Source: Ornithinimicrobium pekingense DSM 21552 (GTDB lineage Bacteria > Actinomycetota > Actinomycetes > Actinomycetales > Dermatophilaceae). Taken from it: DNA of 64,000 bases. The notes under the pieces are model-generated. The model was not told the DNA's origin. It searched no databases and was given only the letters and a program-made list of their open reading frames with translations. The position numbers and the translations under genes are program-made. The stretch spans positions 124,001-188,000 of the forward strand of contig NZ_ATWJ01000010.1 in NCBI RefSeq assembly GCF_000421185.1, written 5' to 3'. Positions 14,610 to 58,985 of the stretch are shown in pieces (positions within the stretch are counted from its first letter, which is position 1; each line of letters opens with the position of its first letter).

Positions 14610-15332
14610 GTGCCGACGTTCTCCGAGCCCAGCCCCGCCCTGCCCGCCGCCGTGCTCTGGGACATGGACGGCACCATCGTCGACTCCGAGCCCTACTGGA
14701 TGGCCGAGGAGGAGGCGCTGGTCGCCGCCGCCGGCGGCACCTGGCGGCACGAGGACGCGCTGGAGCTGGTCGGCAACGACCTGCTGGTCTCCGCGCGCAT
14801 CATCCTCGAGCGCTCACCGGTCACGGGCTCGCCGGAGGAGGTGGTCGCGGCCCTGCTGGGCGGTGTCTCCGCCCGGATGCGCGAGACGCTGCCCTGGCGT
14901 CCCGGCGCCGCGGAGCTGCTGGCTGAGCTGGGGCGCCTGGGTGTCCCCTCCGCCCTGGTGACGATGTCGTGGACCCAGCTGGCCGACGTGCTGGTCGAGC
15001 GGCTGCCCGAGGGCACCTTCGCGACGGTGGTCACCGGCGACCAGGTGCGGCTGGGCAAGCCCCACCCCGAGCCCTACCTCGAGGCCGCCCGCCGGCTGGG
15101 CGTCGACCCGGCGGACTGCGTGGCGGTGGAGGACTCCCCCACCGGCGCCGCGTCCGCCACCGGTGCGGGCGTGCCGACGGTCGTCGTGCCGCACATCGTC
15201 GAGGTGCCGCCGATGCCGGGAGCGGTGCAGGTGCAGAGCCTGGCCGGTCTCGACCCGGCCGGCCTCACCGCGCTGGCCCGTTCGGCCCGGGCCCGGCACG
15301 ACCGGGCCGCCAGCGAGGACCTCAAAGCCTGA
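14610..15332 (+). CDS. HAD-superfamily phosphatase
   Basis: A 240-residue HAD hydrolase of the beta-phosphoglucomutase/sugar-phosphatase subclass. Motif I is DMDGTIVDS (nucleophile Asp near residue 17), motif II VTMSW, motif III the Lys in [10 protein letters not shown], and motif [13 protein letters not shown]. Substrate unknown. The start is the GTG at 14610; no ATG fits the conserved N-terminus. It is divergent from PAC2, and its 3' end overlaps that of mshC by 11 bp on the opposite strand. Confidence 0.87.
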
Positions 15333-41943: not shown

Positions 41944-45213
<3,270 letters not shown>

Positions 45214-45216
45214 GCC

Positions 45217-46788
45217 TCATACCTCTGTCGACCGCGACACGTAGAGCTGGACAGGCACGGGCGCCCCGCCCGGAAGGGTCACCTCTCCGACGTAGAGCCC
45301 GGGCGACCACGCGGCCGCCTGGACCTGCAGCCGGACCGCGTGCCCCTGACCGAGCGGCTCGACCGTGGTGGTGACGGCTCCGGCCGGGATCCGGGCCGCC
45401 CCCGCCTCGATCGCGACCAGGTCCGAGACCACGGGTGCCGGCACCTCCTGGCCAGCGGGGACGCCGAGCGGGATGACGGTGCCCTCGACGCCCGCGGGCC
45501 TGGCGCCGCCACCGCCGGTGAACGCGTGCGCACGTGCTGCGGCGCCCCCACCGGTGCGCCCGGGCGGGGCGATCCCCCGCTCCAGACCCTCGTCGGCGAC
45601 CTGGGCCAGCGCGGTGATCCCGTGCATCCAGGCCTGCGACCAGTCCTTGGCCAGCTGGGAGAAGATCCGTCGCTGGTGACGGGCCAGGTCGGCGGCCCGG
45701 ACGTCCGGGCGCATGGCCTCCCCCGCCATCTCGTCCAGCAGGCTGACGTAGGTCCGGCTGGAGTCTCCCAGGAAGTCGATCCACTCCTCGGCCGGCTCGA
45801 GCCACGAGCAGTTCATGGTGGTCCCGGGCGTATGTGGCTCCTCCTCGCCGCCCGCCGGCCTGCTGCTCTGCCCGCCCTCGACGGCGGCCCGCACCCAGTC
45901 GGTCCAGAAGGGGCACACCAGGCGCGCCAGGTCGTCCCAGAGGTCCTCGCGGAAGCCGACGATCTTCAGCGCCCGGACCTGGCGCACGCCGCCCACGTCG
46001 ACGACCGACAGGAAGCCGCGGTCGACGTCGATCTGGTCGTCCAGGCTGAGCGCGAGGTCGTAGGTCATCCCGGCCGAGCGCCCGCTCTCGCACCAGTAGT
46101 CGCAGTGCAGCAGCGTGTCGACCCGCCGGACGAGCTGGACCTCCTCGTGGAAGATGCCGTGCCAGTGCTCGTCCCCGCGCGGCGGAGCAGGCAGGTCGAC
46201 GGGGGCCTGCGAGCCCACGACCTCCATCCCCTTGAACAGCATGGGGCCGCGCCTGGGCCAGCTGCGGGGGTCGACCCAGTCGGCCACGTCCGCGAAGGCG
46301 GCGTCGGTCTCGAACTCCGAGTAGACCCACGTCGCCCGCAGTCCGCCGACGTCCACCGTCCGCACGGTGCACACGTCCTCCCCCACGAACGCGGTCTCGT
46401 GGTGCGGCAGCGCCTGCCCGGACGGTGTCGTGGAGAACGGGACGGCCTCGCTCGTGGACAGCTTGAGGTCGTCCAGGAGACGGTCGGCCTGCACGCCGGA
46501 GCGGGCACCGGCCACGGAGGCGGCGAGCTCGCGGTACTGCGGCTCGGCCGACTCCCAGTCCGGGAACCCGCCTCGGGCCAGATCGCCCAGGACGCCGACC
46601 CGGGCGGAGACCGGCACCTGCTCCAGCGACGCCCGCGCGAGGGTGTGCAGGGCCTGACCGGTAGGTGCACGCCGGAAGCCGGGCGGCAGGTCGGGGTCGC
46701 GGACCCGCGCGTGCAGGTTCAGCAGCGCGGTGTGGTGCTCCTCCACCGTCGTCCAGCCGGAGTCGTCCTCGAGGCGCTCGGCCATCAT
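45217..46788 (-). CDS. START-like plus Ig-like protein heading the isoprenoid operon
   Basis: A 523-residue protein that I could not assign to a named family. Residues 150-310 look like a START/SRPBCC lipid-binding fold (ADWVDPRSWPRRGPMLFKGM, HWHGIFHEEVQLVRRVDTLL, GFREDLWDDLARLVCPFWTDW). A helical stretch follows (WSQAWMHGITALAQVADEG), then a flexible Gly/Ala linker and a C-terminal Ig-like domain (EPLGQGHAVRLQVQ, SPGLYVGEVTLPGG). The ATG at 46788 has AAGGTGG upstream. A hydrophobic-ligand-binding role would suit the polyprenyl synthase in the same operon. Confidence 0.68.
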   Translation of the reverse strand: MMAERLEDDSGWTTVEEHHTALLNLHARVRDPDLPPGFRRAPTGQALHTLARASLEQVPVSARVGVLGDLARGGFPDWESAEPQYRELAASVAGARSGVQADRLLDDLKLSTSEAVPFSTTPSGQALPHHETAFVGEDVCTVRTVDVGGLRATWVYSEFETDAAFADVADWVDPRSWPRRGPMLFKGMEVVGSQAPVDLPAPPRGDEHWHGIFHEEVQLVRRVDTLLHCDYWCESGRSAGMTYDLALSLDDQIDVDRGFLSVVDVGGVRQVRALKIVGFREDLWDDLARLVCPFWTDWVRAAVEGGQSSRPAGGEEEPHTPGTTMNCSWLEPAEEWIDFLGDSSRTYVSLLDEMAGEAMRPDVRAADLARHQRRIFSQLAKDWSQAWMHGITALAQVADEGLERGIAPPGRTGGGAAARAHAFTGGGGARPAGVEGTVIPLGVPAGQEVPAPVVSDLVAIEAGAARIPAGAVTTTVEPLGQGHAVRLQVQAAAWSPGLYVGEVTLPGGAPVPVQLYVSRSTEV

Positions 46789-46930: not shown

Positions 46931-46959
46931 AGACCCCCGGCCGGAAGGCTCGGGGGTCT
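46931..46959 (-). terminator. Terminator-like hairpin, probably the displaced tRNA-Leu terminator
   Basis: Perfect 9-bp stem AGACCCCCG (46931-46939) with CGGGGGTCT (46951-46959), 11-nt loop. It lies 12 bp from the 19-bp copy of the tRNA-Leu 3' end at 46972, the distance and order expected downstream of a tRNA gene read on the minus strand. The intact tRNA at 58902 now lacks such a hairpin. Confidence 0.7.
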
Positions 46960-46971
46960 CGTCCTGCGTCG

Positions 46972-46990
46972 GTGTCCGGAGGGGGACTTG
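46972..46990. other. Left attachment-site remnant (copy of tRNA-Leu 3' end)
   Basis: GTGTCCGGAGGGGGACTTG is identical over 19 bp to 58901-58919, which is the last 18 nt of tRNA-Leu(GAG) plus one base. The rest of the tRNA is absent here. This is the classic footprint of integration into a tRNA 3' end. Confidence 0.75.
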
Positions 46991-47374
46991 CCCACATGGG
47001 ACACACACCCTGGACATCCAGATCGGAGCGTAACGCAGGTCAGAGGAGCATGCGAGGCACACCCATCTCGACGGCACTCGGGTGAACCCGCGCCGCGGAC
47101 CGACGTCATGCCATGACGGGCGGGAGTCCCTCACTCCCCCCGTCCGCTCCCCAGTGACCCGTCGCTCCATGGCATGACGTCACGACCCGTGACGTACCTG
47201 GCTTGGGAACGCACAGGTCCGTGACATCGCTGTACCGCCGATGTCCGGATGCTTGGCTGCGGCCCCCCTGAGTCCTCAAGCGGCTCCACGATGCCAGACC
47301 GGCCAGACAAGGTATGACCCTGACACCCGAGTCATCACTTGGTTAGATTCAATACAAGAGCGGCGTCATCACCG
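46991..47374. other. Non-coding region with dense palindromes beside the left att site
   Basis: No convincing gene. GACGTCATGCCATG (47102-47115) is repeated inverted at 47168-47181 with 52 bp between. Inside it GTCATG-C-CATGAC (47105-47117) is itself palindromic, and TGACGTCA (47175-47182) and GTCACG-ACC-CGTGAC (47179-47193) follow. The cluster resembles a recombination or regulator-binding region. The remaining sequence shows nothing else I recognise. Confidence 0.5.
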
Positions 47375-47380
47375 TACGGT
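47375..47380 (+). promoter_or_regulatory. -10 box of the HTH/HEPN-like gene
   Basis: TACGGT lies 6 nt before the ATG at 47387 in an AT-rich stretch. Confidence 0.4.
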
Positions 47381-47386
47381 ATATGC

Positions 47387-48328
47387 ATGACAGACCGTGG
47401 TGCGGAGTCGACTGGCACTACTTCCGGCTCTCCGGCAGACGGTAACCGGCCGGCATTGAATGATGTCGCGTCCTCGCAGCCCCTGGTCGAGACGCTGAAG
47501 AACGCTCACACCCGTGTCCGCGAGGCCGAGAACGCGTTATCGGAAGCAGTCCGCGAGAGGGACCAACTGGTTCGTAAGGCGGTAGAAGAGGGCCTGTCAA
47601 AAGGTGCCGTTGGTCGCGCTCTAGGAATCACCAGACAGGCCGTATACGGCCTATTGCGCCGCACACCACAGGCGCATGGGACGGCTACGGACGAGCGGAG
47701 TCCCGATCTCCTTGCTCTGCGGAGGCAAGCCAAGGCGGCTACGTCGTGGCTCAGCGTCGCCATTCAGCAGACTGAGCGAGCCGAGTCAGAGGAAGTGGAT
47801 GGGATGGTAGACGGGATGCTTGCCGTCCTTGCCCTGTATGTTGCAGCGAGTTGCGCAATCCGCGCATTGGGTGACGACCACCCTGCAGTTCAGCAGTTCC
47901 TTGGGGATAAGGAAGTCGGGCACGAGCCACTAAAGAACAGTCGCGACCTGCTGGCGCATTTTGATGCCTATGTGGCCGGTGACGGGAATCTTCAGCGCGC
48001 CGAGATCGACGGCCAGCGCCGACCTAACCCCCCGGACGCGAGACCCCCGCTTATGCCGATGTGGGGCGGTGGTCCCGAACAGCAGCTCACATTTATAACG
48101 AAGACTTGGGTGCGATCCGATGACGGGAAAACACTCCTCCTAGATGGGGAACCGCTCCGCCAGGCGGGGGTGCCATGCATGGAAACACTTGACATCACCA
48201 TTGACCTTCGAGATTCGCTCCGTGCGACAGGGGAAATCGTTGGTGAATGCTGCAAGGGGGCCGGTTTGGCCGACCGTCGGGACGTCCGAGACCTACTGGC
48301 TAGGGCTGCTTCCTCGGCGGACGGCTAG
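47387..48328 (+). CDS. HTH protein with HEPN-like motif
   Basis: A 313-residue protein. Residues 30-70 form a coiled coil (HTRVREAENALSEAVRERDQ), followed by a clear helix-turn-helix, LSKGAVGRALGITRQAVYGLLRR. A helical middle domain contains KNSRDLLAHFDAYVAG near residues 190-205; R-x4-H followed by a small-residue helix is the HEPN RNase pattern. The last 100 residues are unassigned (LTFITKTWVRSDDGKTLLLDG). Codon third positions are less GC-rich than in the core genome, indicating transfer. Role unknown; a regulator or defence/toxin-type RNase is possible. Confidence 0.65.
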   Translation: MTDRGAESTGTTSGSPADGNRPALNDVASSQPLVETLKNAHTRVREAENALSEAVRERDQLVRKAVEEGLSKGAVGRALGITRQAVYGLLRRTPQAHGTATDERSPDLLALRRQAKAATSWLSVAIQQTERAESEEVDGMVDGMLAVLALYVAASCAIRALGDDHPAVQQFLGDKEVGHEPLKNSRDLLAHFDAYVAGDGNLQRAEIDGQRRPNPPDARPPLMPMWGGGPEQQLTFITKTWVRSDDGKTLLLDGEPLRQAGVPCMETLDITIDLRDSLRATGEIVGECCKGAGLADRRDVRDLLARAASSADG

Positions 48329-48746
48329 CGGCCACCACTCTCAGCGGACACTGCGGTTGCCGGCTGAAATGTTGTCTCACCCTCCGTTGCTGCCCCTCAA
48401 GTGAACGAAGAGTTGCGCTAAAACGAGTGAGGTTGGCCTGATCGGGCTTGAACGTGAAGTCTTTATTGGCCATATCCCGGGCACAATCATCACACAAAGA
48501 ACCGCGCTTGCCTCGACCTGTTGACAAGCATGATGTGACCGGCGCCGACAGATTATCGGTGACTCGGCTGAGTCTCAACTTCGAGGAGGCGTTACCTGTC
48601 GACTTCACGGCGGCGATCTTGCGGCCAGCGCCCTGTGGTACCAGTCCGACGATATGTGGCGGAATGACCCGCAGTTGGGCACCTACACGGGCAGGGCATC
48701 GCCAGCCAGTCCGCGGAGCGTCGTAAGGTGGTCCCGCCCAGCCCAT
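48300..48746 (-). CDS. Possible Cys-containing ORF, doubtful
   Basis: An open frame of 148 codons in the gap between the HTH gene and the HipA-like gene, on the opposite strand. Residues 86-103 include SLCDDCARDM and an earlier Cys, suggesting a zinc site, and the central part (KDFTFKPDQANLTRFSATL) looks protein-like. There is no good ribosome site and no family match I can name. It may be a decayed gene. If it is not real, the stretch 48329-48775 is non-coding. Confidence 0.3.
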   Translation of the reverse strand: MGWAGPPYDAPRTGWRCPARVGAQLRVIPPHIVGLVPQGAGRKIAAVKSTGNASSKLRLSRVTDNLSAPVTSCLSTGRGKRGSLCDDCARDMANKDFTFKPDQANLTRFSATLRSLEGQQRRVRQHFSRQPQCPLRVVAASRPPRKQP

Positions 48747-48775
48747 CAGACTACAACCGAGACGCGGGAGACTGG

Positions 48776-49594
48776 ATGCCTAGAGCTAGAGCTCGTGGGG
48801 GGTACGTCGGAGTTCGGGTCACCGCCGACGGGCTGGCCGTGGAGTCTCCGGGTGGTGGCCTCGAGTTGGTGGGCTTCGAGAGCTACGTGCGTCGAAACAC
48901 TCACGAGCGTCCCTTCGCCGTGGTGAACGACTTCATCGGTACCTCCGTGGCGCTCGCCCTCGGGGTACCCGTTCCGCCAAACGCGATCCTTGAGTACCGG
49001 TCCGAGAGGGGGCATCTTTCTCTCGCCTACGGCAAGGGTGGGATGACTACTCCGCCACTCACCTCCAGCGCACTCAAGGAGGCGGTCAAGGGGGACCCGT
49101 GGGCTGCCACCGGGATCGTCGTACTGGATCAATGGATCTTGAACGAGGACCGGTACGAGAACGTCCTCCAACTCCCGGGACGCGAGCTGGTGGCGATTGA
49201 CCACGACAACGCGCTCCTGGGGCACGAGAACCCGCTTGATCCCACCGCGGCGCTGCTCGCATCCCGGGACCGAGTCCTCACCCGTCACGAGCTCGTCGAG
49301 CATCTGCCCTCCTGGGACAACGTGCTGGGATGGGTTGCACGCGCCAAGGCCATCACAGACGCGGAGCTGAGACGTATGTGCCTGCGCTGCTACGACTCCG
49401 ACCTGGTCTCGGCTAGCCTGCGAGACGCGCTGGCAGACTTCCTGATCTACCGGCGGCAGTCTGTCGGTGCGATGATGGAGACTCTGCGGAAGAGCTACTC
49501 GGTCTTCACCGACGACCTGCTGACCAGCGAGGAGGCTGACCCCGATGACGACGGCGACGTCGCCCCAATGGTACCTGGTCAAGTTAATCCCTGA
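48776..49594 (+). CDS. HipA-like kinase-domain protein
   Basis: A 272-residue protein resembling the stand-alone HipA-like kinase group. The core reads TGIVVLDQWILNEDRYENVL (catalytic-loop-like, D...N), then LVAIDHDNALLG (metal-binding Asp). It lacks the N-terminal HipA subdomain. The ATG at 48776 has GGGAG 6 nt before it; a GTG at 48728 is an alternative. The DUF3037-type gene overlaps its end by 50 bp, a pairing seen in many bacteria. A toxin-antitoxin or phage-defence role is possible but unproven. Confidence 0.7.
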   Translation: MPRARARGGYVGVRVTADGLAVESPGGGLELVGFESYVRRNTHERPFAVVNDFIGTSVALALGVPVPPNAILEYRSERGHLSLAYGKGGMTTPPLTSSALKEAVKGDPWAATGIVVLDQWILNEDRYENVLQLPGRELVAIDHDNALLGHENPLDPTAALLASRDRVLTRHELVEHLPSWDNVLGWVARAKAITDAELRRMCLRCYDSDLVSASLRDALADFLIYRRQSVGAMMETLRKSYSVFTDDLLTSEEADPDDDGDVAPMVPGQVNP

Positions 49595-50360
49595 CCTCTA
49601 CCGAAACGAGCCCAAGAACGTCGGGCTTATTGTCACACGCGGCCGCGAATACCATGCCCGCTTTGTGGGCGAGCGCGACGACCTGAGCATTGACCGGCGT
49701 CGGATACCGGGAGCGGCGCCTGACCGTGAAGTTTACGAGGCTTGGATTCAGTACCTTCGCGATCGGGCGGCTGCAGGACAACTCGAGCGCAGTATCGAGC
49801 GCATGCATGAACGTATTGAATCGTTTACAGTCGAGCGCCGCGGACGCATCCTGGGACACGATTCGACTCCATTGCCCGTTCTGGTGGAGCAGATCTTCCC
49901 GCGGCTTGTCACAACGCCGGACGAGCCGGCCACATCGACATCGCTTGCCAGAGCAGCCAAGGCAGCCATTGACCAAGTGGCCGTGCAGATCACCGAGGAT
50001 GTGGACCTCGACCTGACGGATCGTCTGGGTGTAGAGCACGAGGTGCACTTCGACTTCAAGGCCGTCAACGGTCACATCACCTTGATGGATCGCCTCACCC
50101 TTGACTCGCGCCCGCGCATGCGAGCCCGGAACACGCACGACCTCATGTTCAGGATCGATCTCGCGCGAGACGGCGGCTTTGACCGGTTCATAGCGATGCA
50201 TAAGGAACCGGCAAGCAACGCGGACATGGAAGAGCTAGAGCGCGTCAACGCCTATGCATACCTGTTGAACGTTGATGAGCCAAACGCAGCTCAGAACTTG
50301 GCGGACCAGCTCGGTGTTGGGCTCATAGGAGACGTCCGCGGGTCCGGCAGCGTTCTCTGA
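49545..50360 (+). CDS. DUF3037-family protein
   Basis: A 271-residue protein. The N-terminus WYLVKLIPDLYRNEPKNVGLIV is the DUF3037 signature (a beta strand ending in NVGxI). The rest is a mixed fold with LVEQIFPRLVTTPDE and VHFDFKAVNGHITLMDRLTL. No known activity. It overlaps the HipA-like gene by 50 bp in another frame with AGGAGG before its ATG, so the two are co-translated and probably work together. Confidence 0.75.
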   Translation: MTTATSPQWYLVKLIPDLYRNEPKNVGLIVTRGREYHARFVGERDDLSIDRRRIPGAAPDREVYEAWIQYLRDRAAAGQLERSIERMHERIESFTVERRGRILGHDSTPLPVLVEQIFPRLVTTPDEPATSTSLARAAKAAIDQVAVQITEDVDLDLTDRLGVEHEVHFDFKAVNGHITLMDRLTLDSRPRMRARNTHDLMFRIDLARDGGFDRFIAMHKEPASNADMEELERVNAYAYLLNVDEPNAAQNLADQLGVGLIGDVRGSGSVL

Positions 50361-50577
50361 CCCGTGACCCCTGGGTTCAGTCGACTTGCCCCGACAAGGT
50401 GATGGGCCGAGAGCCTTGGGCGCACGCGAGATCCACTATCTCCCCCGGGGGGAAGACACGGTGTGGAATCCGACACGGTAGGCGAAGGGTTGCAGCACCC
50501 CCCGTGGGGTGCCGCCAGACGCGCGCACCTGCCGCGGGTCGTACGGACCCTGGTACACGGGAAGGGAGACTTCTCCT
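50361..50577. other. Intergenic region
   Basis: No gene visible. CACCCCCCGTGGGGTG (50498-50513) contains a short GC-rich dyad that could terminate the HipA-like/DUF3037 transcript. The region also holds the promoter of the nucleotidyltransferase gene. Confidence 0.35.
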
Positions 50578-51060
50578 ATGAAGAACTCCTCCCGGATGAC
50601 CGCCGCCGAGGTGGTGCAGATCGTCGCCTGGCTTCACGCCAACGGGGTGGTCTATCAGGTCAACGGCGGATGGGGTGTCGATGCGTTGGTCGGACGGCAG
50701 ACTCGCTCCCACCAAGATCTCGACGTGTTCATCGACGAAGATCACGAGGCCGAGTTCATGGCCTGGCTCACCTCCCGCGGCTATCGGGTCACCGAGGATT
50801 GGCGACCAGTCCGCGTGCAGCTATCGAGTCACTCAGGGCAAGTAGACGTCCATGCAATGCGCTTGGACCCGGCCGGCAACGGAGTCCAGCAAGGTCTGGA
50901 CGGCGAGGTGTACCTCCACCCTTCTGAGCAGAGAGTTACCGGCCTAATCGACGGCCAAGCGGTCGTCGTGGCCAGTGCCGGGCGAGCCCGCGAGCTTCGA
51001 AGGGGCTATCCCATGCGTGCCGTAGACCTCCACGACCTTGCCGTACTCGACGAGCTGTAG
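50578..51060 (+). CDS. Nucleotidyltransferase, aminoglycoside/lincosamide-modifying type
   Basis: A 160-residue protein with the antibiotic nucleotidyltransferase core. VNGGWGVDALVGRQTRSHQDLDVFID holds the GG-W-x...DxD metal-binding motif (shown here as GGWGVDAL and HQDLDVFID), and VDVHAMRLD supplies the third Asp. Relatives include LinB/LnuA-like lincosamide and ANT(2'')-like aminoglycoside adenylyltransferases; many chromosomal homologues have no proven substrate. Its place in a genomic island fits a resistance or MNT-type antitoxin role. The ATG at 50578 follows AAGGGAG. Confidence 0.72.
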   Translation: MKNSSRMTAAEVVQIVAWLHANGVVYQVNGGWGVDALVGRQTRSHQDLDVFIDEDHEAEFMAWLTSRGYRVTEDWRPVRVQLSSHSGQVDVHAMRLDPAGNGVQQGLDGEVYLHPSEQRVTGLIDGQAVVVASAGRARELRRGYPMRAVDLHDLAVLDEL

Positions 51061-51142
51061 GCATCCTGTTCTGCCGCCGGTCGGATGCGTCGGGAACTGG
51101 CTTGAGATGTGGCGCGGAACACTCCTTGCCCGATGGAGATCG

Positions 51143-51400
51143 TCATCGGTAGACGTCCGCGCGGTGCTCGATCGCAATGATGGTCACGTGCGCATCGATC
51201 CGGTAGATGATCCGGTACGAGCCCCGTCGTGCGCTGTGCAGCCCCTCGAGGTCGAAGCGCAAGGCCTTGCCGACGCGCTGGGGAGTGCTCGCGAGGGGAC
51301 CGTAGATGAACTCGATGGCCGCCGTGGCCACCTTCTCGGGCAGTCGCTGCAGGGCGCGCTTGGCCGTCGGCGTCCACGCGACCTCGTACTGCTCCACCAT
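51143..51400 (-). CDS. RelE/ParE-family toxin
   Basis: An 85-residue toxin of a type II module. YEVAWTPTAKRALQRLPEKV opens the RelE/ParE fold, and LRFDLEGLHSARRGSYRIIYRIDAH contains the basic residues that bind ribosomal mRNA in RelE-like toxins. Its ATG overlaps the antitoxin stop by 1 bp. Confidence 0.87.
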   Translation of the reverse strand: MVEQYEVAWTPTAKRALQRLPEKVATAAIEFIYGPLASTPQRVGKALRFDLEGLHSARRGSYRIIYRIDAHVTIIAIEHRADVYR

Positions 51401-51681
51401 CAGACGCGCAGCGTCGCAAGGACGTCTTCCTTGCTGAGGACCTCGGCCTCGCCGGCCGCGAGCTCGGCAAGACTGTCTCGGACCTGGGTGATGAGCTTGG
51501 GCCGGCTCACGACCTTCAGCGTCTCCTCCAACGACTCGAGGTCATCGGCGCTGATGACCACCGCCGCCGGCTTGCCGTGACGAGTGATCACGACCCGGTC
51601 ATGCTCCCGCTCGACCTGGTCCACCACCTCGGACAGTCGATTCTTCACATCCCGCAGGGCCATCGAAGCATCTACAGTCAT
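51400..51681 (-). CDS. Phd/YefM-family antitoxin
   Basis: A 93-residue antitoxin. The N-terminal Phd/YefM dimer domain is typical: ALRDVKNRLSEVVDQVEREHDRVVITRHGKPAAVVIS, seen in parts as VKNRLSEVVDQVE and VVITRHGKPAAVVIS. The C-terminal tail neutralises the toxin encoded next. Transcription is probably autoregulated through the direct repeats at 51681-51700. Confidence 0.88.
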   Translation of the reverse strand: MTVDASMALRDVKNRLSEVVDQVEREHDRVVITRHGKPAAVVISADDLESLEETLKVVSRPKLITQVRDSLAELAAGEAEVLSKEDVLATLRV

Positions 51682-51700
51682 AGCCACAAGTGTAGCCACA
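51681..51700 (-). promoter_or_regulatory. Operator-like direct repeat of the Phd-RelE module
   Basis: TAGCCACA occurs at 51681-51688 and 51693-51700, 12 bp apart. The first copy overlaps the antitoxin start codon. A TACACT hexamer on the coding strand (51697-51692) would be the -10, so binding here would block transcription. Confidence 0.45.
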
Positions 51701-51733
51701 TCACGCCTCAGGTCAATACCCTGACGCGAAGAT

Positions 51734-52985
51734 TCAGGTGCGCGGTCCCGGGCAAGGCGTCTGGAGAGTGACCTCATAGCCAAGGGCTTTGAGCTGGGCG
51801 ACGGCACGGTTCTTAGCGCGCTCCGGGCGACGCCGGGTGTAGTAGTCGCTGCCGAGGTCCTCGTAGACCTCACCGGTGCTGAGCATGTGCCAGATCACTG
51901 TGAGCATTGCATGTTGAATGGCGACGTTCGCCTTCATCGGCCCTCTTCGGCTGGAGATCCGTCGGTACTTCGCACCGAGATAGGTCGGGGTCCTGGCTGC
52001 CGCGAACGCTGCCGCGCCCAGGGCGCCCTGAAGGTAGGGATTGCCTGGGTCTGGTCCGGGACGACTTCACCTTTCCTGCGGACTCGTTGTTGCCGGGCGT
52101 GGTGCCGGCCCAGGAGGCGAGGTGGTTCGCCGTCGGGAACTGGGCCATGTCGGCTCCGGTCTCGGCGATCACGACGTCGGCGGTCAGGACGCTGATTCCG
52201 GGGATCGTGGTGATCAGGTCCCTTGCGGCGCGAAAGGGTTTGATCAGTTCCTCGATCCGCTCGGTGAGCTGGTCGATCGCGGTCGTGTGCTGGTCGATCA
52301 GGTCCAGGTGAATGCGGGCCATGAAGGCGTGGTGCTCTACGAAGCGTCCTTGGAGTGCCTCGGTCAGCGCGGGGATCTTGATCCGCAGCCGTCGCCGGGC
52401 TAGGTCGGCCATGAGGACCGGATCGCGTTCGCCCTCGATGAGGGCTTCGAGCATCGCCCGGCCCGAGACACCGAGGATGTCCGAGGCCACGGAGGAGAGC
52501 TTGATCCCGGCATCCTCCAACAGTTTCTCCAACCGTTGGACCTCCCGTGAACGCTCGCGGATGATCGCCGTCCGGGTCCGCGTCAGGTCGCGCAGCTGTC
52601 GCACCGGCTCGGGTGGCACGAACGAGCCACGCACGAGGCCATGGGCTCCCAGCTGCGCCAGCCAGGTCGCGTCGCTGACGTCGGTCTTGCGCCCGGGCAG
52701 GTTCTTCACCTGGCGTGCGTTGACGAGCAGCACCTCGACACCGTCCAGGTCCTCAAGCAGGTAGTAGAACGGCTTCCAGTAGTCGCTGGTGGCCTCCATC
52801 ACCACGCAGGTGACCTGCTCGGCGGCCAGGTGCTCTCGCAGGGCGAGGATCTGGCGCGTCATCGACGACCAGGTGCTGACCGTCTCGATCGCCTTCCGCC
52901 GTCCCGTCCCGGCCACCCGGACGCAGACCTTGGCGTCGGTCTTCGAGATGTCCATGCCCGCGCAGCGGGTGTGCATGACTTCCAT
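51734..52985 (-). pseudogene. IS110-family transposase, frameshifted
   Basis: A DEDD transposase. The first frame (52985 to about 52047) has the RuvC-like core GMDISKTDAKVCV, VVMEATSDYWKPFYYLL and GRKTDVSDATWLAQL, then the Tnp20 domain with ITTIPGISVLTADVVIAETG. At about 52047 one extra base shifts the frame. Reading on in the next frame restores NPYLQGALGAAAF, YLGAKYRRISSRRG and MKANVAIQHAMLTVIWHMLSTG to the stop at 51734. One base therefore separates it from an intact gene of about 417 codons. Start chosen at the ATG 52985 behind AAGGAG. Confidence 0.85.
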
Positions 52986-53272
52986 CCTGGAGCTCCTTCT
53001 CCTCACGACGCCTGGCGAGAACCATCGTTCGTCGTGTGGAGGGCAGGGATGTTCGGAAGTCTGACGCGCGGGCTCGCTGGCACCAATCCACGGGAGTCAA
53101 GCGACATGCGACGGCTTAGGGTGGGTGTGGGCAGGCCGGGGTGTTGGAGCGCTCAGCGACTCCTGTGACCCCCGGTCTGCCTTGTGGTTGGTGGCCCGGT
53201 AGTAGCGCTTCTTCGGCGCCTTGCTGGGGACCTGGTACTTCTCGGTGACGATGCGTTTGCCCTCGGCCTGGG
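52986..53272. other. Non-coding flank between the two IS110 transposases
   Basis: No gene. In IS110 elements the non-coding end upstream of the transposase encodes a bridge RNA that pairs with donor and target DNA; 52986-53100 is where that RNA would lie for the first element. Part of the region (53097-53272) is the out-of-frame 3' end of the second transposase. No terminal inverted repeats are visible, as usual for this family. Confidence 0.4.
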
Positions 53273-54475
53273 TCAGGGCGTGCCGTCGACGTCGCAGATC
53301 TGGTACGGCTGCCCGGTGCGCCAGCAGGTCGCGATCCGGGTCAGCAGGATGGTCGCCAGGTGGCACACTGCCGAGTCGTGGTGGCGGTGGTCGGCAGCCA
53401 TGAGCCGGGCGTACTTCGCGGCCAGCTGGGGGTCGAGCTTGCGGGCCTGATCGGCGGCCATCCACACCGCCTCGCGCAGCAGCGGGTCCCCGGCCTTGGT
53501 CAGCCCACCGGTACGTTCGGAGGTGCCGGACTGGCTGACCTTGGGCACGAGGCCGGAGTAGGAGCGGACCGCGGCCAGGGAGGTGAACCGGTGCGGGTCG
53601 CCCAGGCGGCCGGCGATGATGCCGGCCAGCACCGGCCCGACGCCGGGAGCGGAGCGGACGATGCCGGCCGGGTCGGCCTCGGCGTAGAGGTTGGCGATCC
53701 GCTCGTCCAGGTCGCTGATCTGCGCGGTCAGGGCGATGGCCTGCTCGGCCTCGACGGCGATGTCGGCGGCCAGCTCGGCGAAGTCGATGCCGTCGCCGTC
53801 CCACAGCCGCAGCGATTCCTGGGCGGCGGCGATCAGCTCGGCGGCCTTGCCCTCGCGCCAGTGGCCGCGGGAGTAGCGGCGCAGGAACCGGGCCAGTCGG
53901 GCCTGCCCGAGGCGGATGACGACGGTGGGGTCGGCGTAGCGGGCCAGGAACGCCAGCGTGGCCTTACCGTAGTCGGTGCCCTGCGCGTCGTACCAGCCCG
54001 GGCCGAGCAGCTCGAGCTGGGCGTCGAGGCGGTTGAACACCGCGGTGCGTCGCTTGGCGATCGAGGAGCGCTGCTTGACCACCCGGCGCAGCGGGTCGGC
54101 CGGTCCGTCGCCGACGTGCTCGCGTAACCCCTCGGGGTGCAGCAGCGGCAGCCGGGCCAGGACCACCGAGTCCAGCCGGTCGTTCTTGGTGTGCTTGGAG
54201 AAGTACTCGCGCAGGTCCGCCGACTGGGTCGTGGGCACCATCACCACCTTCACTCCGCGGCGGCGGAACCACGCTGCGACCGGGATCCAGGCGTTGCGGG
54301 TGGGTTCCATCACGACCGTCAGCTCGCCCGGGTCGCGGCCGATGTCGGCCCACAGCCGTTCCAGCTCCACGGTGCGGGAGAAGAACTTGCGCCCGCGCCA
54401 CACCAGCCTGCCGTCGGGGCCGGCCAGCGACGCCACGTGCGCCGCCCGGCAGGCAAGGTCGATTCCCAAGGTCAT
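53273..54475 (-). CDS. IS110-family transposase, second copy, C-terminus altered by frameshift
   Basis: A 400-residue DEDD transposase of a different IS110 subgroup. The catalytic residues lie in LGIDLACRAAHVA, VVMEPTRNAWIPV and KNDRLDSVVLARL; the Tnp20 part has RSAPGVGPVLAGIIAGRLGD and GGLTKAGDPLLREAVWMAAD. The frame ends at DVDGTP. The next frame continues ALTQAEGKRIVTEKYQVPSK to a stop at 53097, so one G seems to have been lost near 53283 and about 60 residues are missing. The catalytic domains are intact, so activity is possible. Start at ATG 54475; an in-frame ATG at 54511 also exists. Confidence 0.82.
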   Translation of the reverse strand: MTLGIDLACRAAHVASLAGPDGRLVWRGRKFFSRTVELERLWADIGRDPGELTVVMEPTRNAWIPVAAWFRRRGVKVVMVPTTQSADLREYFSKHTKNDRLDSVVLARLPLLHPEGLREHVGDGPADPLRRVVKQRSSIAKRRTAVFNRLDAQLELLGPGWYDAQGTDYGKATLAFLARYADPTVVIRLGQARLARFLRRYSRGHWREGKAAELIAAAQESLRLWDGDGIDFAELAADIAVEAEQAIALTAQISDLDERIANLYAEADPAGIVRSAPGVGPVLAGIIAGRLGDPHRFTSLAAVRSYSGLVPKVSQSGTSERTGGLTKAGDPLLREAVWMAADQARKLDPQLAAKYARLMAADHRHHDSAVCHLATILLTRIATCWRTGQPYQICDVDGTP

Positions 54476-54739
54476 GCCCACGTCCAGCTCCTCTGCTCGT
54501 GATCGGGTCATCCACCTCGATGAGGAGTCGGCTGGGCCCAGACATTCTGCAAGTAGGAGTCCCCAACTGTGTGGGGCTTCAAGTTCCCGAACAGGGACAC
54601 CGCTCACCATCGAGAGCCCCTGCGAGGGCCTCTCAGTACAAAGGGATCACCGGGTGTCCCAGCCGCTAGATCAGACCCCCGCAGGGATGCCAATCAACCT
54701 AAATGCCGCACCCCGTGGGCCCGCCGCTACGCTCGTCCC
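54476..54739. other. Non-coding region: IS110 end and upstream region of the BTAD regulator
   Basis: No gene. The first 100 bp or so would be the transposase-proximal end of the second IS110 element, a candidate bridge-RNA locus. CCCCA (54562-54566) and TGGGG (54573-54577) form a small hairpin. GTGGGGCTTCAAGTTCCC (54572-54589) matches 16 of 18 bases of the tRNA-Leu T-arm. Confidence 0.4.
54728..54733 (+). promoter_or_regulatory. -10 box of the BTAD regulator gene
   Basis: TACGCT lies 6 nt before the ATG at 54740, supporting this start over upstream in-frame codons. Confidence 0.4.
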
Positions 54740-57619
54740 ATGGCTCGTGGGGAGGCCGGCGGGGTCCTCGACGTCAGACTGCTCGGCAGGGTGGCCGTTC
54801 GCACCGCAGCAGGGTGGCGCGACGACTGGCCACGTCCGGCCGCCCGACGCCTGGTGGCCCTCCTGGCCATCTCCCCCGCCCGGTCGGCCCCGCGGGAGGT
54901 GATCGCCGACCGCCTGTTTGGCCATCTGCCGACGGACCGGGCCCTGCGCAACGTGTCCAAGGCGCTGAGCCAGGCACGGACCGTGGTCGGCCCCGGGGTG
55001 CTCCTGGGCGATTCCGTGACTGTCTGGATCGCAGGGTCGGTGGAGGTGCGCACCGACCTCGCTCGCGACACCGAACTGGCGCAACGTGCCCTGGATTCTC
55101 CGCCGCCGAGTGCGGTCTGGCCAGAGCTGCGCGCCGTGCTGGCCCGGGCCGACCAGCTGCTGTCCGAGGACCTCTACGAGGACTGGGCTCAGGAGGAGCG
55201 GCGCGCCCACGGGGTACTGGCCGGGGAAACGGCGCTCGCGCTCGCCCGCAGCAGCGGGCGCGAGGCGGACTGGAGCCGGGTGCTGGCCGACGACCCGTGC
55301 GACGCCGAGGCCTGGGAGGCGGTGCTGACCGCCGCGGCCGCACGCGGCCCGGTCGAGCTCGACACCGCTTGGGCCGAGTGCCGGCTCGTCCATGCGCAGG
55401 AGCTGCGGCGGCCGCCCCCGCCCCCCTTGCGCCGCCTCGCGGAGGGCCGGGAGGAGCGCGGGGAACGCGCGGACGGACCCGACCTCACTGTGGGCCACGA
55501 GGCCGAGCTGCGGTGGCTCGCGGAACGGGTGCCGGCCGCGGCCCGGGGCGGGGAGAGCTGGTTGCTCCACGGGCCGGCGGGGATCGGCAAGACGCACCTG
55601 CTGCGAGGGGCGGCCCGTGACCTGCGCCACCAGGGGTGCCTCGTCCGGTGGGCCACCTGCGTGGCGGACGACAAGGGAGGACCTTTCGCGCCACTGGTCT
55701 CGGCGCTGCGGCTCGGGCACACCGGATCCCGTCCCGTGATCCAGGCCCTGGAGCGGGGTCGCCCCGGCAGCCCGCAGGGCTGGTCCGCGGTCCGCCTGGC
55801 CGACGACGTCGCCGCCGTGCTCGACGCGTATGCCGAGCCGCTGGCCCTGGTCGTCGACGACGTGCACTGGGCAGACGCCGCGCTGCGGTCGCTGCTGTCC
55901 CGGCTCTGTACGTTCACGAACGGTCGGAGGTGGAGCCTGCTGCTGGCCGGCCGCAGCGACGAGAGCGACCACCCGCTGCCCACCGTGCCGTCGACCACCG
56001 CGACGTTGCGCATCACGCCGTTGACCTCCCAGGAGACCGCTCGCCTGGCACGCCGGCTGATCGACCAGGACCGTGCCACCGACCCGGTGGCCTCGGAGTC
56101 GGTCGTGCAGAGCCTGGTGGCCCGCAGCGGCGGCAACCCGTTCTTCCTGACCGAGCTGGCACGGGGCGCGGGCGGAGCCCCCGTGGCGGGAGGGGACATT
56201 CCGGAACGGATCCATGTCCTGCTGCGCCGGCGGCTGTCCCCGCTCAGCACCACCTCACGCCAGGTGCTGGAGGTGCTCACGCTGGCAGCTGAGCGAGCCA
56301 CCGTCCCGCTGCTGGTACACGTAGTGGGTGAGCAGGAGGTGGACCGCGCTCTTGGCGAGCTGCGGTTGCACTCGCTGCTCGACCCCGTGTCTCCCGCCCC
56401 GCGGCCGGTCCATCCGCTGCTGCGCGAGGTGGTGGTCGCAGACCTGACGGCGGTGCGTGCCTGTGAGCTGCACGACCAGCTGGCGCACGCCCTGGGACAC
56501 CTCGCCGGGGAGACTGGGCGGCGTGACCTGGAGGAGGCCGCCGCCGGCCACACGCTCGCCGCCTGGACCGCATACCCGACCGGGGAGAGGGCGCCCGGCG
56601 CCGCCGCCGCCGGGTTGACCAGCGGTGGCCGCGTGCTGCGCGCCTTCGCCCCCGAGGCGGCCGCGAGGATCCTGGAGGAGGCCCTCGCGGCCTTCGCCGA
56701 CAGCACTGCCGAGGCCAGGCGAGACCTGAGGGCCGCTGCCGTGGACGGCTGGCTGGACCTGGGACGGTGCCGCCTGCTGCTCGGCGACCCGGAGGGTGCG
56801 GAACGGGCTCTGCGGGCAGGGCTAAAGCTGGCCGAGCAACCGCTGGAGCGCGCGCGATGCTACCGCCGGCTGGCCGGCCTGCACTACCGCACCGGACGCA
56901 TGGCGGAGACGGCCGGAGTGCTCGAGGTCGGCCTCCTGGCGGTGACCGACGAGCTGGCCCGCGCGGTGCTCGAGACCGAGCTGGGGTGGACACTGCACCG
57001 GCGCGGTCGCGCCTTAGAAGCGCTTCCGATCCTCGAGCGTGCCACCAGGGTGTTCGAGGACGGGGGCAGCTGGGACCTGGCGGCCTGGTCCCTCGACTAC
57101 CTCGCCATGACCCACGTGGCTCTCGGGGCCCCGGAGCACGGCTTGGCGCTCCTGGACCGGGCGCTCGCCCGGGACGGGGTGGGTGCCGACCACCACCGGC
57201 GCGGGGTCATCCTGATCCACCGAGGCCGGGTGCTCCTGCAACTGGGCAGCCTCGACGCGGCCTTGGGTGCCGTCGAGGAGGGCATCCGGATCCTCCGCCG
57301 CAGCCGGGACAGGTATGTGCTCAGCGTCGGCCTGCGCATCGCCGCCGACGTCCACGAGGCCCGCGGCGACCCGGCCGGTGCCGTCCGGGCCCGGACGGAG
57401 GAGCTGAACCTCCTCCGCGGCACGGCGAATCACCGGCACGCAGCCGTGGCGCAGGCGCACCTGGCCAGCCTCTACCGCAGGCTCGGACGCCCGGAGGAGG
57501 CCGACCGGGCCGCGCGTGCCGCCCAGGACGCGGTGGAGCGATCGGCCGACCCCGACGTGGCCGAGGAGGTGGCGCGACGCCTCGCCGACGGGAACACGGC
57601 GGGAACACCCGACTCCTAG
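54740..57619 (+). CDS. BTAD/SARP-like regulator with STAND ATPase and TPR repeats
   Basis: A 959-residue regulator of the AfsR-like architecture. Residues 8-80 are an OmpR-type winged helix in divergent form (LDVRLLGRVAVRTAAGW, APREVIADRLFG, NVSKALSQARTVVG); residues 85-220 are a BTAD-like helical domain. The ATPase has Walker A LLHGPAGIGKTHLLRG and Walker B LALVVDDVHWADAALRS. From about residue 600 the chain is TPR-like (GWTLHRRGRALEALPILERA, HRRGVILIHRGRVLLQLGSLD). The two genes downstream (SnoaL-like and exported) are 45 and 31 bp apart and are likely its operon partners. Confidence 0.85.
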   Translation: MARGEAGGVLDVRLLGRVAVRTAAGWRDDWPRPAARRLVALLAISPARSAPREVIADRLFGHLPTDRALRNVSKALSQARTVVGPGVLLGDSVTVWIAGSVEVRTDLARDTELAQRALDSPPPSAVWPELRAVLARADQLLSEDLYEDWAQEERRAHGVLAGETALALARSSGREADWSRVLADDPCDAEAWEAVLTAAAARGPVELDTAWAECRLVHAQELRRPPPPPLRRLAEGREERGERADGPDLTVGHEAELRWLAERVPAAARGGESWLLHGPAGIGKTHLLRGAARDLRHQGCLVRWATCVADDKGGPFAPLVSALRLGHTGSRPVIQALERGRPGSPQGWSAVRLADDVAAVLDAYAEPLALVVDDVHWADAALRSLLSRLCTFTNGRRWSLLLAGRSDESDHPLPTVPSTTATLRITPLTSQETARLARRLIDQDRATDPVASESVVQSLVARSGGNPFFLTELARGAGGAPVAGGDIPERIHVLLRRRLSPLSTTSRQVLEVLTLAAERATVPLLVHVVGEQEVDRALGELRLHSLLDPVSPAPRPVHPLLREVVVADLTAVRACELHDQLAHALGHLAGETGRRDLEEAAAGHTLAAWTAYPTGERAPGAAAAGLTSGGRVLRAFAPEAAARILEEALAAFADSTAEARRDLRAAAVDGWLDLGRCRLLLGDPEGAERALRAGLKLAEQPLERARCYRRLAGLHYRTGRMAETAGVLEVGLLAVTDELARAVLETELGWTLHRRGRALEALPILERATRVFEDGGSWDLAAWSLDYLAMTHVALGAPEHGLALLDRALARDGVGADHHRRGVILIHRGRVLLQLGSLDAALGAVEEGIRILRRSRDRYVLSVGLRIAADVHEARGDPAGAVRARTEELNLLRGTANHRHAAVAQAHLASLYRRLGRPEEADRAARAAQDAVERSADPDVAEEVARRLADGNTAGTPDS

Positions 57620-57664
57620 CGTCCGGTCATCCGGCACCCGCCGGGAGAGCGAAGGAGGAGTCTG

Positions 57665-58069
57665 ATGAGCATCATCCAGGGGCCACAGTCCGTCGAGGAG
57701 ACCAGGCAGGTGCTGGAGGCCTACGCGGCCGAGCACGACACGTCGCTGATCGCGCCGGACGCGGTCTTCCACGACGTCGCCTCGGGGAAGGACTACGTCG
57801 GCCGTGAGGCCATCGCCACGATGCTGCACCACGTCTACCACGTCGCCCTCCAGGCGCGGGCGGAGGTGGTGCGCACCACCGTGGGAGAGGGAACCGCGGT
57901 CCTCGAGGGGTTCGTCGTGGGCACGCACACCGGGGAGTTCGCCGGTGTGGCCGCGACGGGGCGGCAGGTGCGCGTCCCGCTGGTCGTCAGCTACCGCATC
58001 GCTGACGGCTACGTGCAGGAGGCCGACGTCTACCTCCTGGTGTCGAACTTCCTGCAGCAGGTCGCCTGA
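57665..58069 (+). CDS. SnoaL-like (NTF2-fold) protein
   Basis: A 134-residue protein with the SnoaL/NTF2-like alpha+beta cone: a helical start (SVEETRQVLEAYAAE), the loop DAVFHDVASGKDYVGREAIATML, and VPLVVSYRIADGYVQEADVYLL. Family members include polyketide cyclases and many proteins of unknown substrate. AAGGAGGAG before the ATG at 57665 is the strongest ribosome site in this area, so it is probably made at a high level. Confidence 0.82.
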   Translation: MSIIQGPQSVEETRQVLEAYAAEHDTSLIAPDAVFHDVASGKDYVGREAIATMLHHVYHVALQARAEVVRTTVGEGTAVLEGFVVGTHTGEFAGVAATGRQVRVPLVVSYRIADGYVQEADVYLLVSNFLQQVA

Positions 58070-58100
58070 CGCCGGGCGCACGGGACACGGAGAAAAGATC

Positions 58101-58454
58101 ATGGTCATCCGGCTCGTCGCACCCGTCGTTCTCCTGAGCGGCCTCGGTCTGGTGTTCCCGACCGCGGTCCCCGGGACCCCACCCCCCTCCTGGACCCACG
58201 AGCGGGTCCTTGAGTGCGAGGAGGGAACGGTGCACACCTACCTGACCCCTGCCGGTATCGGCACTCCCTTCCACGTCGTCGGCACGGACGAGGTCATCAT
58301 CCCCATGCATGTCGAGATCGTCCTACCATCGGGCGAGGGTCCATTTGTGACCATCGACATCCCAGGGTTCGACGCCGAGGACCCGGACGCCGTCCACTGC
58401 TGGTATGTGGATCCGGCCGGTCTCGAGGTGGACCTCTGGGGAGTCCGCCGCTAG
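58101..58454 (+). CDS. Small exported protein
   Basis: A 117-residue protein. A short signal peptide (MVIRLVAPVVLLSGLGLVFPTAV) precedes a beta-rich domain with two Cys (LECEEGT and VHCWYVD) that could form a disulfide. No family recognised. The ATG at 58101 has GGAGA 7-8 nt upstream. It is the last gene of the BTAD-regulator run. Confidence 0.6.
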   Translation: MVIRLVAPVVLLSGLGLVFPTAVPGTPPPSWTHERVLECEEGTVHTYLTPAGIGTPFHVVGTDEVIIPMHVEIVLPSGEGPFVTIDIPGFDAEDPDAVHCWYVDPAGLEVDLWGVRR

Positions 58455-58901
58455 AGGCAGCCAACCCTGACGCGGACCCGTAGACGGGGCCAGGGCCTGG
58501 GCGGCAGGGTGCATCGGTTTGCGGGCCGATATGGACTCTCACCCGCTCGAGGTACGGAGCTGACGAAGATGCGCTTGGACCCGCGTCCACAACGCGTGCG
58601 CCTAGGGCTCGCAGGGTCGACGGTGACCTCTCCCACGACCTTGACACCTCGCCCAAGGACATTTCGATCGCCGCCGATCCCGGGCAAGGCCCGGTTCGCA
58701 GGCGGATGACGATCCTCATGGTGCTGGGGTCGATCTCGAGCGGGGGATCATCTTCTTGCAACAGGCTGAAGAGCACCCCGAGGACTAGTCCTCCCCGTCA
58801 CCGCTGCCGCGATCGTTAACGCAGATCTGACCATCGCGTGGGGGTTCAAGTCGCCGATCGTCGAAAATTGCCGCGTTTCCGCTGGCCAGGGCCATGACTT
58901 G
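58455..58901. other. Right-end island region without a convincing gene
   Basis: Only short open frames, none with a ribosome site or family match. On the minus strand TMRIVIRLRTGPCPGSAAIEM (58695-58720 area) reads like a protein fragment and may be a relic. GCGTGGGGGTTCAAGTC at 58836-58852 is an exact inverted copy of 17 nt of the nearby tRNA-Leu. No terminator hairpin follows the tRNA here. Confidence 0.4.
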
Positions 58902-58985
58902 TGTCCGGAGGGGGACTTGAACCCCCACGCCCGTTAAGGGCACTAGCACCTCAAGCTAGCGCGTCTGCCATTCCGCCACCCGGAC
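58902..58985 (-). tRNA. tRNA-Leu (anticodon GAG)
   Basis: An 84-nt class II tRNA. The acceptor stem pairs GTCCGGG (5', from 58985) with CTCCGGAC, with discriminator A at 58902. The anticodon stem-loop is CTAGC-TTGAGGT-GCTAG, giving anticodon GAG for CUC codons. A long variable arm (TGCCCTTAACGGGCG) and the T-loop GGTTCAAGTCC are present. No CCA is encoded. Its 3' end is the attachment site of the island to the left. A TAATCT -10 candidate lies about 45 nt upstream near 59030. Confidence 0.95.

Follow-up and report, generated by a model that had tools for sequence, protein, structure and literature searches.

The DNA examined here is a 64,000-nucleotide stretch of the genome of Ornithinimicrobium pekingense DSM 21552 (GCF_000421185.1, contig NZ_ATWJ01000010.1, positions 124,001–188,000 of the forward strand), called the window below; coordinates are window positions unless another contig is named. 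It contains an intact tRNA-Leu(GAG) gene on the minus strand, called by ARAGORN and Rfam at 58901/2–58985, and a displaced copy of the 3′ end of that gene at 46972–46990. An earlier note had read the 11.9 kb between the two as a genomic island at the tRNA 3′ end, and our analysis supports this first interpretation. Relatives are given as numbered genomes (G), contigs (C) and loci (L). The genus comparison began with 24 genomes, to which 7 were added later; G422 is cut at the tRNA, leaving 30 of the 31 readable. A wider family set comprised 186 genomes. Stretches of relatives were read up to 20 kb, several of them ending at contig ends.

A displaced tRNA 3′ end and its terminator

The 19-bp sequence GTGTCCGGAGGGGGACTTG is identical at 46972–46990 and at 58901–58919, the latter being the 3′ end of tRNA-Leu(GAG) (58901–58985, minus strand). 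When as many as three mismatches were allowed, the window gave two matches against 0.02 expected from shuffles, and the 3.85-Mb genome contains two exact copies and no others. Beyond the 19 bp, the sequences around the two copies are unrelated. In the sense of the tRNA the repeat spans the T-loop to the 3′ end, and a start in the T-loop is as expected of the core of an attachment (att) site. We refer to the copy within the tRNA as the near core and to the copy at 46972–46990 (minus strand) as the far, displaced core.

Twelve bases from the displaced core lies a hairpin (46931–46959, minus strand) whose 9-bp stem is formed by AGACCCCCG at 46931–46939 and CGGGGGTCT at 46951–46959. It resembles the native tRNA-Leu terminators of G010, G021 and G280, although it is unlike that of G013, and from its position and this likeness we regard it as the displaced intrinsic terminator of tRNA-Leu(GAG). 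No stem of at least 8 bp starts within the first 46 bases after the intact tRNA. The exact repeat, the hairpin beside its displaced copy and the missing terminator at the intact gene had all been put forward in the earlier note, and each was confirmed. An intact tRNA gene whose 3′ end is directly repeated at the far junction is the arrangement of a tRNA island.

The dinB gene adjoins tRNA-Leu(GAG) in every one of the first 24 genus genomes; its match in G008 is broken into several pieces. The protein flanking the island on the left (45217–46788) is present in 2 of these 24, the window's own genome and G013. The order in G013 is dinB, tRNA-Leu(GAG), an immediate terminator stem of 17 bp, about 1.5 kb of other DNA and the same two-gene operon; the extra stretch presumably holds one other gene, as read by eye. 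Between the two genomes 5.48 kb of the left flank can be aligned at 75.6%, and none of the island proteins of the window, used as queries, was found in the 20 kb read of G013. The empty site that the earlier note had predicted is therefore present in G013 as regards the tRNA, the terminator and the operon, but not base for base, because of the extra 1.5 kb.

Among 12 relatives' stretches that were searched, none shows the set of island genes at an ancestral position, single island genes having kin in G003 and G014. The four other genus genomes that have a far end with a P arm (described below), G001, G002, G023 and G422, all possess the copy of the core there, with two mismatches in G002. Neither of the observations that would have counted against the earlier note was thus made, and the genome-unique repeat, together with G013 and its lack of island genes, supports the acquisition of 11.9 kb at the tRNA 3′ end.

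Conserved arms at the two island ends

Each end of the island carries a conserved sequence, here termed the P′ arm (beside the tRNA) and the P arm (beside the displaced core). The P′ arm of the window (58835–58898, minus strand) matches the P′-arm model R1 with 62.8 bits. This arm, the ~65 bp behind the tRNA, is common to 7 of the 31 genus genomes, at 8 sites (two of them in G023) that score 51–64 bits; R1 was built from these same 8 sites scoring at least 51 bits. A weaker match of 24.5 bits occurs in G419, and one of 24.0 bits in G009, which overlaps the tRNA on the other strand, was left uncounted. The arm consists of a TGACCTGCGGAAACGCGG-like motif, a spacer and an inverted copy of the variable/T-arm region of the tRNA; within the window, this inverted copy (58836–58855, plus strand) agrees with the tRNA at 19 of 20 bases. 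The inverted T-arm is kept in several species, yet it is not strictly complementary. An antisense relation to the tRNA was considered and set aside, as complementarity is not strict in G002, G003 and G005.

The P arm (46991–47047, minus strand) aligns with sequences of G001, G002 and G023. It is common to G000 (the window's own genome), G001, G002 and G023, ending in GTGTGTCCCATGTGGG in three of the four, and a model of P arm plus core, R2, was built from these four sites; the window matches it with 80.5 bits. A scan of the family set with R2 found matches in 10 of the 186 genomes: beyond the four builders, these are G422 of the same genus, G543, G544 and G545 of another genus, and, weakly, G493 and G445. 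A regulator-like open reading frame (ORF) lies next to the P arm of G001, and no toxin–antitoxin (TA) pair was seen beside other P arms such as this one.

When the two ends of the window island were joined in silico, the product agreed with a real junction, found on a contig of G023, at 117 of the 160 bases aligned. The joined ends scored 33 for the P arm and 27 for the P′ arm, against 16.5 and 14.5 for the best of 389 other island windows. The island has thus retained attL and attR with both arms. Composite junctions are also seen in G023 and G002.

Presence of the arms goes together with the state of the tRNA terminator. The stem behind tRNA-Leu measures 15–19 bp in 18 of the 30 readable genus genomes and 11 bp or less in the other 12, the window's included. 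In tests that omit G422 and treat species that are not independent, a P′ arm scoring 51 bits or more was found in 7 of 12 short-stem and 0 of 18 long-stem genomes (Fisher 3.9e-4), or 8 of 12 against 0 of 18 when the 24.5-bit match of G419 was added (Fisher 8.5e-5); for a second core accompanied by a P arm the counts were 4 of 12 and 0 of 18 (Fisher 0.018). By these sequence comparisons, the two island ends define a family of insertions that recurs in other species. The earlier note had missed these family-defining ends, as it had the lack of a detectable integrase described below. A limited search of the open-licence literature found no description of this element family.

The matches in the second genus, g147, come from fragmented metagenome-assembled genomes of 280–550 contigs. 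Sites of the form P-core-P′ stand there head to tail, in one orientation per contig: G543 has them at 2 (cut), 15224 and 16550 on C199, and at 2380 (P arm diverged) and 3273 on C133. From core to core the segments measure 1307, 15203 and 874 bp in G543 and 114 bp in G545, and three of these four, all seen whole, contain a TA pair: HepT/MNT in the 1307-bp segment, YefM/YoeB together with further genes and a tRNA-Sec in the 15203-bp segment, and ParE/Phd in the 874-bp segment. The 114-bp segment has no genes. A PIN/helix-turn-helix pair adjoins a further P arm of G543; G544 has a comparable pair and G545 a comparable PIN protein. The PIN protein that was scanned is that of G543, the others being named by eye. 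A terminator-like hairpin stands behind tRNA-Leu itself in G543, so that the junctions of this fragmented genome may lie elsewhere.

Two loci of this genus are recorded in their own right. In L186 (G543:C199, 248–14782) a tRNA-Sec at 5837–5932 and the YefM/YoeB pair lie between two P-core junctions, among genes that we take, by eye, to be formate-dehydrogenase- and selenocysteine-like; the 15.2-kb segment is possibly a portable selenocysteine trait. On C370 of G545 (L189, L218), an integrase and presumably phage-like genes (read by eye) lie at tRNA-Leu(GAG) and are followed by a P′-P unit with 114 bp between its cores.

Island genes and the search for a recombinase

The guanine-plus-cytosine (GC) content is 63.4% between 47000 and 53000 and 72.9% between 53001 and 58080, against 75.0% and 74.2% in the flanks. 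The lower GC of the left half, as claimed earlier, is therefore borne out, the right half is not low, and the difference suits a composite origin of the island.

The first gene inside the far end encodes a helix-turn-helix protein (47339–48328, plus strand; PHROG match, E 9.4e-8). It is followed on the same strand by a possible HipA-like protein (48728–49594), whose match to PF20613 is weak (E 0.0012; 18.6 bits, under the 27-bit cut-off) and for which a PDB sequence search was uninformative, and by an overlapping ORF of unassigned family (49545–50360), which had no match at E 0.001–0.01 in Pfam, NCBIfam, PADLOC or PHROGs and a chance-like Pfam hit at E 0.045. A nucleotidyltransferase gene of the aminoglycoside/lincosamide type (50509–51060, plus strand; PF10706, 1.1e-34) matches the resistance models Lnu and ANT far under their cut-offs and recurs in the G003 island at 90% identity. 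The minus strand then carries a TA pair composed of a ParE/RelE-type toxin (51143–51400; PF05016) and a Phd/YefM antitoxin (51400–51873; PF02604), and two transposases of the insertion sequence family IS110 (51870–53006 and 53273–54610), both matching PF01548 and PF02371 and the second also NF033542 above its cut-off.

In the high-GC part, a large ORF (54569–57619, plus strand) has partial NCBIfam matches below cut-off and encodes what we take, on reading by eye, to be an ATPase/regulator-like protein. A SnoaL-like protein follows (57665–58069, plus strand; PF07366), and a stretch near the tRNA (58690–58817, minus strand) resembles part of a small gene of the G003 island (blastn, 91% and 82% to two places in L033). 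Islands at this tRNA have cargo in common, because that of G003 shares with the window both the nucleotidyltransferase gene and this stretch adjoining the P′ arm; the shared DNA consists of short pieces. PADLOC gave weak or flank matches only. Outside the island, the left-flank protein (45217–46788) had been named START/Ig-like in the earlier note, a name that finds no support, since scans at E 1e-3 placed it in no Pfam or NCBIfam family. It is the partner of a large protein (41944–45213) with a cyclase-like part, which Pycsar cyclase models match (best E 3.9e-12). A tRNA-Arg(TCG) lies at 15213–15300 on the plus strand.

An integrase gene beside the att site, usual in active islands although not required of decayed ones, was not found in the window island. 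A six-frame search with PF00589 gave no tyrosine-integrase match, and scans of the main ORFs showed no recombinase beyond the two IS110 transposases. The ORFs scanned matched no family of phage structural or transfer proteins, nor any member of the set of integrase, Rep/Prim-Pol and FtsK-like translocase that marks an actinomycete integrative and conjugative element (AICE). Integration and transfer genes are thus absent as far as these searches reach, serine recombinases and transfer genes having been sought through the main-ORF scans.

We further used 19 integrases of the genus and family as queries against 15 island stretches, namely those of the window, G001 (two), G002 (two), G003 (40 kb), G005, G014, G023, G419, G422, G543 (two), G544 and C333 of G545. 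There were no hits, and the positive control was picked up by 17 of the queries. Only two cases allow a firm statement of absence, the 11.9 kb of the window and G005, in which ~9.2 kb separate the tRNA from the next conserved gene; in G018 and G023 the contig that bears the tRNA is too short to judge. No intact integrative and conjugative element (ICE) or integrative and mobilizable element (IME) with the same att sites was seen in the 186 family genomes, and neither viral contigs, searched with the exact P-plus-core pattern, nor plasmids and phages, searched with the G023 junction, matched the site.

Several candidates for a cognate integrase or its binding site were set aside. The integrase 47 bp from a decayed P-core of G001 (L184) has its own att site, apparently at its other, 5′ end, where a different tRNA 3′ end is found, and the tRNA-Thr integrase of the window's genome has a different core. 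The TGACCTGCGGAAACGCGG motif gives weak support as an arm site specific to one integrase, because, as read by eye, tRNA terminators contain it too and it recurs at further loci of the order. Applied to 57 loci, most of them chosen for an integrase, R2 matched strongly only at L113 and L114, which are model builders, and at L184; its other matches were tRNA cores or scored below 14 bits. One integrase clade of the genus has TGACC(A/T)GC repeats near its start: of 44 occurrences over 11 loci, 20 fall within 3.9% of the sequence, although 5 of the loci are copies of one element and hence not independent. The same motif is common inside tRNA terminators of the order (by eye), and the members of the clade that were read have cores other than this tRNA-Leu.

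Two further observations concern integrase loci and motifs elsewhere. A CTCTGACCTGCGGAAACGCGG-like motif recurs across the order, in tRNA terminators (by eye) and upstream of promoter-like sequences, with 12 matches in G177; its loci are L120 and other matches, and L124, L125, L129, L132 and L140. Five genus genomes (L240, L249, L253, L257, L267) contain a stretch of ~3.5 kb with an integrase gene, 83–94% identical over most of its length and inserted at remnants of another tRNA 3′ end.

Origin of the island and comparison with known elements

We consider it highly probable that the 11.9 kb represent an integrative element inserted at the 3′ end of tRNA-Leu(GAG). As no integrase or transfer gene is detectable, the element would be a remnant that can no longer move or, with less certainty, a cis-mobilizable element (CIME), which depends for its movement on a neighbouring element or on a recombinase supplied in trans. 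An element carrying an attP site composed of P arm, core and P′ arm, presumably as a circular intermediate, would have recombined with the tRNA 3′ end by means of a recombinase that was probably of the tyrosine class, the crossover falling in or beside the T-loop part of the 19-bp core (CAAGTCCCCCTCCGGACAC in tRNA sense). A copy of the tRNA 3′ end would have come with the element and kept the gene intact, and the chromosomal 3′ end and its terminator would have been shifted 11.9 kb away. The TA pair may since have stabilised the island.

Several observations weigh against this reading. G013, with its extra stretch between terminator and operon, is an imperfect empty site. The P′-bearing genomes G003, G005, G014 and G018 have no second core within two mismatches, the second core of G001 lies 1.38 Mb from the tRNA, so that an arm alone is no proof of an intact element, and G423 spoils the neat picture with a two-mismatch core elsewhere that has no P-arm match. 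Neither excision nor a circle was observed, and the search for serine recombinases was confined to scans of the main ORFs. Parts of the 11.9 kb may be later arrivals, given the pair of IS110 copies and the shift in GC near 53 kb. Moreover, the family may not be integrase-free, as four other sites, mostly weak, lie 0.05–1.9 kb from integrase genes or pieces. Besides the decayed P-core of G001, these include the weak core-like sites of G493, with an integrase piece 319 bp away (L192, 10314–11130), and of G445, with one 1.9 kb away (L194, 5–2385), and the last core of G545, which has integrase pieces on the far side of its terminator. L192 and L194 are a hint, the closest pointer we have, to an integrase-bearing relative.

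That last point bears on the possibility that the island is what remains of a prophage or conjugative element which had its own integrase at this tRNA, since lost from the window. An integrase adjoins the tRNA in G545, on a contig with genes that we take by eye to be phage-like, and in G544 an integrase adjoins the same core; the pieces near the G493 and G445 sites fit as well. However, the prophage end in G545 is unlike the P′ arm, the P′-P unit with 114 bp between its cores stands separately beyond it, and the window island ORFs that were scanned gave no match to phage structural or transfer families. We regard such a descent as unlikely. Plain accumulation, in which the terminator was lost and DNA was inserted through IS110 and homologous recombination, the 19-bp copy being an older relic, would account for the two IS110 transposase genes, the GC shifts within the island and the limitation of the DNA shared with G003 to short pieces. 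It is at odds with the match of both outer ends to conserved arms and to a real junction and with the terminator directly behind the far core, and the association of the arms with terminator loss is hard to account for in this way; we hold it to be very improbable.

A different possibility is that the insertions are cassettes that never needed an integrase of their own, served by a recombinase encoded elsewhere and piling up at tRNA-Leu much as cassettes do at the attI site of an integron. P′ arms are kept in relatives whose DinB is 63–75% identical to that of the window, with no integrase detected in those stretches, and the head-to-tail P-core-P′ junctions of g147 (1307, 874, 15203 and 114 bp), three of four segments having a TA pair, as well as the composite junctions of G023 and G002, are in keeping with it. 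Against this stand the want of an identified cognate recombinase, the integrase genes or pieces near the mostly weak sites of G001, G445, G493 and G545, which favour decay of integrase-bearing elements, the fragmentation of the g147 genomes and the terminator-like hairpin behind tRNA-Leu in G543. CIME decay and accretion, furthermore, account for tandem islands without a dedicated system, and we think a trans-mobilised cassette family unlikely. Its fullest form, a tRNA-anchored integron-like system whose integrase-less cassettes, several of them each stabilised by a TA pair, share one P-core-P′ site based on the 3′ half of tRNA-Leu(GAG), are moved by a recombinase in trans and build up directionally at the tRNA, seems to us quite unlikely; the inverted T-arm would then be a conserved recognition or regulatory part, and the window island a single, partly decayed unit.

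The integrative element that we favour has parallels among described systems. CIMEs lack integration and transfer genes and keep their att sites (PMC5704250); in the accretion of CIMEs in tandem with ICEs or IMEs, elements likewise stand next to one another and tRNA 3′ ends are among the sites used (same source). Unlike that situation, our searches gave no intact ICE or IME bearing these arms, and some g147 units measure 0.1–1.3 kb and hold little beyond a TA pair. A close parallel is offered by the ssrA islands of Dehalococcoides, which are tandem, bounded by a 20-bp direct repeat of the RNA gene and in 15 cases without an integration module (PMC3146451). Serine recombinases are proposed there, the site is ssrA and other islands have the module, whereas the present island is at tRNA-Leu and has no known helper.

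Modules of Acinetobacter flanked by pdif/dif sites also place genes between recombination sites, on which a Xer recombinase acts in trans (PMC6449649), and TA genes are reported in the literature on them; they are, however, mostly plasmid-borne with short dif sites, in contrast to the attP-like sites with a tRNA core found here. Actinobacterial AICEs share integration at tRNA 3′ ends in actinobacteria and occasional tandems, but the proteins that define them, integrase, replication and FtsK-type proteins (PMC3218068), had no match among the window island ORFs scanned. The HipAB system of Shewanella CGI48 is alike in that a TA system maintains a tRNA-integrated island; it differs in that excision was shown experimentally on expression of integrase and excisionase (PMC8978831).

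A tRNA island as such is ordinary. What is less ordinary is that one set of ends is found across species of the genus, with kin in a second genus and mostly without a detectable integrase, and that small TA units stand head to tail between such ends; the conserved ends and tandem TA units are possibly a variant of a known element type. The missing terminator distinguishes occupied from empty tRNA-Leu sites, and the core with its two arms is a defined recombination site on which integrases from the genus can be tried. If a recombinase does act on these sites in trans, they would provide bacteria with a further route, besides integrons and dif modules, for collecting gene cassettes.

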